This document shows positions 24,792 through 26,419 of a stretch of 64,000 nucleotides of DNA, piece after piece (position 1 is the stretch's first letter; each line of letters opens with the position of its first letter). Below the pieces are notes generated by a model. The model was not told where the DNA came from. It saw only the letters and a program-made list of their open reading frames with translations, and did not search any database. Source of the stretch: Bradyrhizobium diazoefficiens (lineage in GTDB: Bacteria; Pseudomonadota; Alphaproteobacteria; Rhizobiales; Xanthobacteraceae). Location: NCBI RefSeq assembly GCF_016616425.1, contig NZ_CP067101.1, positions 310,001-374,000 of the forward strand, in the 5' to 3' direction. A program made the position numbers and the translations under genes.

Positions 24792-24881
24792 TGGCGGAGA
24801 GGGAGGGATTCGAACCCCCGATAGGCTTGCACCTATGCCGCATTTCGAGTGCGGTGCATTCAACCACTCTGCCACCTCTCC
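24792..24881 (-). tRNA. tRNA-Ser (anticodon CGA)
   Basis: The minus strand begins GGAGAGGTGGCAGAGTGG and ends CTCTCC-G-CCA, giving a 7-bp acceptor stem with an encoded CCA. The anticodon arm CCGCA-CTCGAAA-TGCGG has CGA at loop positions 3-5. The D-loop contains TGGTTGAAT, the T-arm GGTTCGAATCC, and between them is a long variable arm (ATAGGTGCAAGCCTAT), typical of serine tRNAs. Total length 90 with CCA. Confidence 0.95.
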
Positions 24882-25294: not shown

Positions 25295-26419
25295 TTACTC
25301 CTTGTCCGACTTGCTCTTTTTCTTGCCGTTCTCCGTGGAATCACGGTCCTTGCCGTTGTCCTTGCGACGGTTGGTGAAGCGCGCATTGCCGAGCCCGGTG
25401 CCGATGGTGAGCACGCCCCAGCGCTCGAAATCCTGCATGAACGGCACTTCCGAGAGGCCCTGCACCACGCCATCATTGTGCATCAGGATCGCGGTGTCGT
25501 GCTCGCCTATGACAGGGATGGCTTGGACGAGGCTCGCCGGCAGGTTGAACTTGCTGCTCTCCCAATTGCCGGGGAGATTCTGCGCGCCCTTCTCGATGGA
25601 CCCGTCGGCGCTGATCACGCCGGGACAGGCGATGCCGATGAACGGCGCGAGCTTGAAGCCCTCGGCCTCGGCGTCCTCGACGAGGCCTTGAAGCATCTTG
25701 ACCAGCCGCTTGACCGCGGCCTCGCGGCTCGGCTCGTCATCGGCGTGGCGCCACAAATCGGATTTGAAGACGAGCGCCTTGGACAGATCGGGCGCCTTCT
25801 TCCAGCGTGTCTCGACGATCCCGCAGCGGATGTTGGTTCCGCCGATATCGACCGCGAGGATGCTGTCATAGGCCTCGAAAATCCAGGACGGCGCGAGATG
25901 CAGCGCGCCGATCAGCCCGGCGTCGTCAGGATCGGAGCGGATTGGCACCAGATCGACCTTGAAGCCTTCCGATTTCAGGATGATCTCGGCCCGGGCAATG
26001 GCAATTTCGCCCAGCCGGCTGGCACGAAAGCCGCCGCCGACCACGATGCACTCGGTCCTGGCCCAAGCCTTGGTCTTGAGAAACCGCCGGGTGACATAAG
26101 CCAGCTCCTGCGCAAACTCCTCGATCGCGCTGTGCACGACGGCGGTGGCCTCGGTATCGTCGCCGACCAGAACGGCATCGAGGACCTTCTTGCTGATCTT
26201 GCCGGATGGCTCGTCGCCAAAGGGATCCTCGCCGCTCTTGCGCAGCGGCTTGCGCCATTCCTCGAGGATGTCGCGAAACGCCCCCTTGCTGGCGCGATCG
26301 CCGAGAAAGCCCTCGTCGTCCTTGATCTCGATGTTGAAGCTGTCGACATCGACCGACGGCAGGCGGCCCGCCCCGTGCTGGGCGATGCCTGTCGTCTTGA
26401 CCAGTTCGTCTGTTGCCAT
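25295..26419 (-). CDS. ROK-family protein (sugar kinase-like) with circularly permuted motif order
   Basis: 374 residues from ATG 26419 (MATDELVKTTG). All landmarks of an ATP-dependent ROK/glucokinase fold are present but in rotated order. The usual C-terminal adenosine region comes first: VLVGDDTEATAVV (84-95) and CIVVGGGFRASRLGE (124-138), then DPDDAGLIGALHL. The usual N-terminal phosphate motif DIGGTN follows at 191-196, then ACPG (264-267), NLPGNWESSKFNL, HND (314-316) and GTGLG (340-344) close to the C-terminus. The zinc motif CxCGxxGC is absent. The tail is lysine-rich (GKKKSKSDKE). Substrate unknown; a glucose-type sugar is a guess. It stands alone. Confidence 0.85.
   Translation of the reverse strand: MATDELVKTTGIAQHGAGRLPSVDVDSFNIEIKDDEGFLGDRASKGAFRDILEEWRKPLRKSGEDPFGDEPSGKISKKVLDAVLVGDDTEATAVVHSAIEEFAQELAYVTRRFLKTKAWARTECIVVGGGFRASRLGEIAIARAEIILKSEGFKVDLVPIRSDPDDAGLIGALHLAPSWIFEAYDSILAVDIGGTNIRCGIVETRWKKAPDLSKALVFKSDLWRHADDEPSREAAVKRLVKMLQGLVEDAEAEGFKLAPFIGIACPGVISADGSIEKGAQNLPGNWESSKFNLPASLVQAIPVIGEHDTAILMHNDGVVQGLSEVPFMQDFERWGVLTIGTGLGNARFTNRRKDNGKDRDSTENGKKKSKSDKE

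Follow-up and report, generated by a model that had tools for sequence, protein, structure and literature searches.

A reversed lobe order suggests that a Bradyrhizobium ROK protein is a circularly permuted sugar kinase, possibly linked to trehalose metabolism

Members of the ROK family carry an N-terminal lobe followed by a C-terminal lobe; the results presented here reveal that this order is reversed in a protein encoded in a 64,000-nucleotide stretch of Bradyrhizobium diazoefficiens DNA (the window; contig NZ_CP067101.1, positions 310,001 to 374,000). The gene is the single open reading frame (ORF) in its interval; it starts with an ATG at 26419 on the minus strand, its stop codon ends at 25295, and the product has 374 amino acids. 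It probably encodes a circularly permuted ROK-type sugar kinase, with ordinary ROK geometry, moved chain ends and a role in glucose/trehalose turnover (probability roughly 0.7). The host genome is 7.14 Mb in a single contig, and the named close protein matches are from Bradyrhizobium.

The initial annotation described a rotation of the ROK order in which both halves are complete and joined by a short linker. Profile comparison, structure prediction and relatives all back this description, and neither of the two outcomes that the annotation had set as refuting it was observed. The motifs on which it relied lie at the residues it gave: VGDD at 85, VVGGG at 126, DDAGLIGA (in ROK proteins normally close to the C-terminus) at 165, DIGGTN at 191, ACPG at 264, HND at 314 and GTGLG at 340. 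We take DIGGTN and GTGLG to be the phosphate 1 and phosphate 2 loops, VVGGG to be an adenosine-type motif, and Asp316, placed by alignment, to be the catalytic aspartate. The Pfam ROK model PF00480 scores above its gathering cut-off (30.3 vs 22.9 bits), with residues 188-357 as the best stretch, aligned to profile positions 2-148 of 294. An NCBIfam NanK model aligns residues 87-176 to its positions 206-286, at a score far below its cut-off. In the rotated profile alignment residues ~12-84, which the initial annotation left unassigned, align to the canonical stretch that follows the GTGLG strand and precedes the GD helix, and therefore the entire ROK length is accounted for. On the same alignment, the idea that residues 1-84 form an extra fused domain was rejected. 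The new chain start falls directly behind the GTGLG (phosphate 2) strand, and ~10 residues join the old C-terminus to the old N-terminus.

A profile of 51 full-length relatives was compared with 29 canonical kinases and a set of polyphosphate-glucokinase-like (PPGK-like) proteins, both of the usual order. Unrotated, the family profile matches the combined ROK profile as two separate halves (E 5.6e-13 and 2e-6). Rotated at residue 180, it gives one alignment of 290 columns spanning canonical positions 1-295 (E 2.6e-18), compared to E 0.3 for a column-shuffled and E 0.23 for a reversed control. Across all profile comparisons the shuffled and reversed controls gave E 0.027 or worse. The rotated match to ROK is not due to chance. 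Against the canonical profile alone, rotation improves two matches of 1.7e-6 and 9.9e-5 to one of 6e-10; against the PPGK-like profile alone it brings no gain, because the C-terminal part of that profile stays unmatched. When the cut point was scanned in 20-residue steps the maximum fell at 180, and a control profile with the usual order scored best unrotated. In a tandem test of single members the score rose for 48 of 51, and at least 200 of 240 profile positions were covered by 44 of 51 members in tandem, vs 0 of 51 as written.

Structure prediction likewise upheld the packing of the N-terminal half as the second ROK lobe, its model superposing on ROK and other actin-fold kinases with modest Z scores. 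In a model of residues 1-183, the segment 40-162 superposes on ROK second lobes, for example on residues 130-297 of 3vgk. Structure-aligned identity to 2yhy is 24% over one lobe. Foldseek searches with the whole model returned partial matches alone (template-modelling scores of about 0.2-0.33), the highest-ranking of which included exopolyphosphatases, hexokinases and MreB; partial matches would be expected of a permutant and fit one, without being proof. Sequence comparison found no close solved relative; the top PDB hit of the family profile was the GNE kinase, matched over one part (E 0.0022).

The reversed order is kept in relatives. With a looser GGG pattern, the motifs are in permuted order in 119/119 and 115/120 homologues listed by two protein searches, and none of those checked has the usual order; the remaining five lack the GGG pattern used in the scan. 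A stricter pattern for the DDAGLIGA region finds the order in 112/119 and 58/120. The permuted order occurs in 0/120 PPGK-like and 0/29 canonical proteins. Full-length relatives align in one piece down to 48% identity. The permuted family looks common: all 8000 scored candidates of the first search passed the threshold, with the best 120 listed; the rest may include usual-order proteins, and probably thousands of database entries named "ROK family protein" or "glucokinase" belong to the permuted family.

Invariant in 51/51 sequences are D191, G193, G194, N196, R198, C265-P266-G267, N281, W286, H314-N315-D316, Q320, G340-T341-G342, G344, N345 and G128-G130; the ROK phosphate loops and catalytic aspartate are among them. 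The zinc motif CxCGxxGC is absent from the window protein, since its only cysteines are at 124, 199 and 265. The motif occurs in 0/240 permuted proteins (120 from the first search, the window protein included, and 120 from the second), 24/29 canonical and 0/120 PPGK-like proteins. Thus the annotated absence of the motif stands, but it does not mark the permutation and was rejected as a special feature, as usual-order PPGK-like proteins lack it equally. The ExGH sugar-binding motif is found in 1/240 permuted, 28/29 canonical and 1/120 PPGK-like proteins. As the PPGK-like set also lacks the zinc motif and almost always ExGH, their loss need not stem from the permutation; it fits kinship with the PPGK-like branch, which is also the nearest by N-lobe profile. 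H15, G40 and D41 are candidates for a remodelled sugar site. The features of the gene are listed in Table 1.

Table 1. Coordinates of the permuted kinase gene and its features in the window
Feature	Position	Strand	Basis
Whole gene, circularly permuted ROK-like kinase, 374 aa	25295..26419	minus	ORF, PF00480, 51-member family profile
Residues 12-175, canonical C-terminal part (post-GTGLG segment, then second lobe), placed first	25895..26386	minus	Rotated profile alignment, model superposition
His15, conserved 50/51, near canonical ExGH position	26375..26377	minus	51-sequence alignment; exact register uncertain
Gly40 (51/51)-Asp41 (50/51), near canonical zinc-loop position	26297..26302	minus	Alignments
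VGDD (GD motif), residues 85-88	26156..26167	minus	Motif scan
VVGGG, residues 126-130; G128-G130 invariant 51/51	26030..26044	minus	Alignment and motif scan
DDAGLIGA, residues 165-172; D165 and G171 invariant 51/51	25904..25927	minus	Alignment and motif scan
Linker from old C-terminus to old N-terminus, residues 176-185	25865..25894	minus	Gap between matched halves
Canonical N-terminal lobe, here second, residues 186-352	25364..25864	minus	
DIGGTN, residues 191-196; D191, G193, G194, N196 invariant 51/51	25832..25849	minus	Alignment and motif scan
HND, residues 314-316, invariant 51/51	25472..25480	minus	Alignments
GTGLG, residues 340-344; G340, T341, G342, G344 invariant 51/51	25388..25402	minus	Alignment and motif scan
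Lys-rich tail, residues 353-374	25298..25363	minus	pLDDT (predicted local distance difference test) <50 for 354-374

The Lys-rich tail mostly lacks a counterpart in the distant relatives of an 11-sequence alignment (A1), which comprises 11 of 13 Alphaproteobacteria matches and omits one with stops inside the match (L009) and one that is partial (L015). A tRNA-Ser (CGA) gene lies on the minus strand at 24792-24881; some 400 bp separate it from the point where the kinase gene ends.

Carriers of the permuted gene make up 12/289 Alphaproteobacteria genomes (the 13 matches above), 33/249 genomes of the host's order, including truncated copies in G512 and G515, and 28/398 genomes of the phylum, six of the last being weak matches confined to profile positions 161-341, as a canonical ROK protein would give. 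Among the named carriers are plasmids of Rhizobium and Sinorhizobium, pSymB of S. meliloti 1021 being one, as well as Pseudoxanthomonas, Luteimonas and Lysobacter, which we take to be Gammaproteobacteria. No phage match was found. In a tree of the N-lobe, built from 31/51 permuted, 15/29 canonical and 15/60 PPGK-like rows, a branch with an approximate likelihood ratio (SH-aLRT) support of 100 sets the 31 permuted rows apart from all the others. The stem is 3.6 changes per column for the permuted rows; that of the canonical set is also long (3.5). The tree is consistent with one old origin of the permuted family. Second copies, ~80% identical to the window copy, occur in two genomes of the genus (L149, L151) and on the Bradyrhizobium plasmid p195_2 (L167), where the surrounding genes include Hsp20, ferritin-like and PRC-barrel genes. 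Truncated remnants retain the C-terminal part (L158) or the N-terminal part (L159), and the latter still adjoins OtsB. A copy with 83% identity is present in a record labelled "Frankia sp. RB7" (L029), which may be mislabelled or contaminated with Bradyrhizobium because such a gene is unexpected in Frankia.

In the host's own family the gene neighbourhood tells little about function. In 12/16 contexts a block read by eye as rplU, rpmA, an acetyltransferase and obg adjoins the gene or lies 2.5-4.4 kb from it; the other four are L149, L151, the plasmid copy L167, and L185. Elsewhere the neighbourhood points to trehalose. At L155, L164 and L183 a TREH_N/GH15 hydrolase, OtsA, PfkB, OtsB and the permuted gene stand in a row on one strand. 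The Hyphomicrobium-like cluster at L155:8980-16007 is the only one to which a usual-order PPGK-like ROK gene is added (GH15, OtsA, PPGK-like ROK, PfkB, OtsB, permuted ROK); the named match of its PPGK-like protein is from Hyphomicrobium. OtsB adjoins the permuted gene on the opposite strand at L153, L162, L180 and the Rhizobium-type loci L165 and L187, and lies 3.6 kb away at L077. The OtsA at L153:3747-5984 has 745 aa, and Glyco_transf_20 begins only at residue 265; the ~260-residue N-terminal extension has no Pfam match at E 0.001 and appears, by eye, to start with a membrane segment.

The association with OtsB extends to whole genomes. One OtsB is found in 31/33 carriers in the sample of the host's order, and the match borders lie <1 kb apart in seven (176-721 bp; families f160, f178 and f182), compared to a chance expectation of 0.025. 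OtsB is present in 31/33 carriers vs 97/216 non-carriers in the order (p 2.5e-8) and in 12/12 vs 57/277 in the class (p 1.6e-8), where both p values ignore relatedness and genome size. The two carriers lacking OtsB (G373 and G385) also lack OtsA; each carries a Hydrolase_3/S6PP-type HAD phosphatase downstream of the permuted gene on the same strand, with gaps of ~35 and ~20 bp. Such a phosphatase directly follows the permuted ROK gene at L157:10454-11170 and L184:10319-11038, in genomes without OtsA and OtsB. Neighbours were further surveyed at 37 loci, a set that omits L149-L152, L161, L167, eight named Nitrobacteraceae loci and the truncated L158 and L159, and still includes L185, labelled as the same family as the host. 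Genes were called by a GC-position heuristic, and 143/147 neighbours were scanned (one lay past a locus end; two of L183 and one of L219 were omitted). The most frequent families were Hydrolase_3 (8) and Trehalose_PPase (6), the latter an undercount because the OtsB genes of L153 and L162 were missed by gene calling. No trehalose or HAD neighbour was found at 27/37 loci.

The permuted protein would adopt the usual two-lobed actin-like kinase fold, bind Mg-ATP between the lobes and phosphorylate a sugar hydroxyl, Asp316 serving as the base. The conserved catalytic residues argue for such a kinase step. The gene context suggests, more weakly, through neighbourhood and co-occurrence, a substrate within glucose/trehalose metabolism. 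In the likeliest version the enzyme would be a glucokinase: glucose released, for instance, by the adjacent TREH_N/GH15 hydrolase would be converted back into glucose 6-phosphate and so made available to OtsA. Circular permutation is generally modelled as gene duplication and fusion followed by loss of the outer halves, and a ROK gene probably followed this route here. Elsewhere in its genome the host already has a PF02685 glucokinase as well as two OtsA genes; a second glucokinase would therefore be redundant there, which leaves room for a different substrate or for pairing with OtsB or a HAD enzyme as kinase and phosphatase.

The alternative to be taken most seriously, doubtful as it is, is a kinase for a non-glucose sugar that partners a HAD-type sugar-phosphate phosphatase, mostly OtsB and elsewhere another HAD protein, the two enzymes together controlling how much of a single phosphorylated sugar is present; that sugar may be trehalose itself or another glucoside. 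The two phosphatase families at the head of the neighbour list (8/143 and 6/143), the Hydrolase_3 genes close downstream in G373 and G385, the lost ExGH motif and the position of the L184 gene after genes resembling a sugar ATP-binding cassette (ABC) importer all agree with it. BglK, by name a disaccharide kinase, is also the best NCBIfam match and is matched by 9/11 members, but the window protein reaches 25.7 bits where the cut-off is 550, and more members (10/11) match the polyphosphate glucokinase model NF045942. In addition, a trehalose kinase beside OtsB would run a futile cycle unless regulated. A still more tentative proposal is that the enzyme acquired a new substrate within trehalose metabolism (trehalose, another disaccharide or a non-glucose sugar) and forms a dedicated switch with OtsB or a HAD phosphatase. 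If true, the new specificity would have been permitted by the permutation, which placed the chain ends in the hairpin of the sugar site.

The remaining alternatives concern the nature of the protein. It is improbable that lobes of two different ROK subfamilies were joined in reverse, rather than one gene rotated. For the N-lobe the closest profile is the PPGK-like one (E 2.9e-15), and the C-terminal part matches the canonical ROK profile (E 1.7e-6) and not the PPGK-like one (E 0.23), as a chimera would, but such profile rankings are weak at this depth, and the rotated profile runs unbroken through the canonical GTGLG-to-GD segment. Even less probable is a protein without catalytic activity that senses sugar or ATP and controls trehalose or carbon metabolism in the manner of a ROK repressor lacking its DNA-binding domain. 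ROK regulators are common, at E 0.001 the host genome has just one further ROK match, which looks, by eye, like a regulator with a helix-turn-helix (HTH) domain, and Pfam gave the ROK family alone for the permuted gene; the invariance (51/51) of Asp316, both phosphate loops and the GGG motif speaks against an inactive protein. Finally, an assembly or annotation artefact has a negligible chance of explaining the order and was rejected; the order is identical in single-contig genomes, on plasmids and in many species, and nothing in favour of an artefact was found.

Proteins of this family are already in databases as "ROK family protein" or "glucokinase", and the permutation is apparently undescribed in the open-licence literature, as no description of a permuted ROK protein was found in open-licence full-text papers. 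In the matching part of the one paper that joins "circularly permuted" with "ROK family", the protein is an unrelated ATP-grasp protein (PMC7701253). The main text of a 2025 glucose-kinase review (PMC12696579) does not contain "permut", and the ROK mentions in the relevant part of PMC6200981 concern a regulator on pSymA. If confirmed, the permuted family would show in nature to what extent an actin-like kinase can accommodate relocated chain ends, and its association with OtsB would give an unassigned kinase a place in rhizobial trehalose metabolism that can be put to the test. Trehalose is important to these bacteria for surviving stress.

That members of one kinase fold group may be circular permutants of one another was recognized in a 2005 classification, which gives no ROK example and whose main text does not mention "ROK" (PMC1079889). 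The window protein shares with the ROK family PF00480, including NanK/GNE ManNAc kinases, ROK glucokinases and BglK, both lobes, the ATP loops, the catalytic aspartate, the CPG and NL..W motifs and a predicted actin-like fold, and differs in its reversed lobes, the missing zinc motif and the near-absence of ExGH. It falls short of the cut-offs for both BglK (NF042998; 25.7 vs 550 bits) and polyphosphate glucokinase (NF045942; 25.7 vs 250 bits). The PPGK-like proteins (NF045942; 1woq) have the nearest N-lobe of the profiles tried and share the lack of the zinc motif and, mostly, of ExGH, but keep the usual order (0/120 permuted) and mostly have 240-300 aa. ROK regulators of the NagC/Mlc type have an N-terminal HTH domain and the usual order. 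They share the actin-like ROK core, and structures of Mlc and Lmo0178 are among the matches of the model; unlike them, the window protein has no HTH domain in Pfam and keeps the catalytic aspartate.
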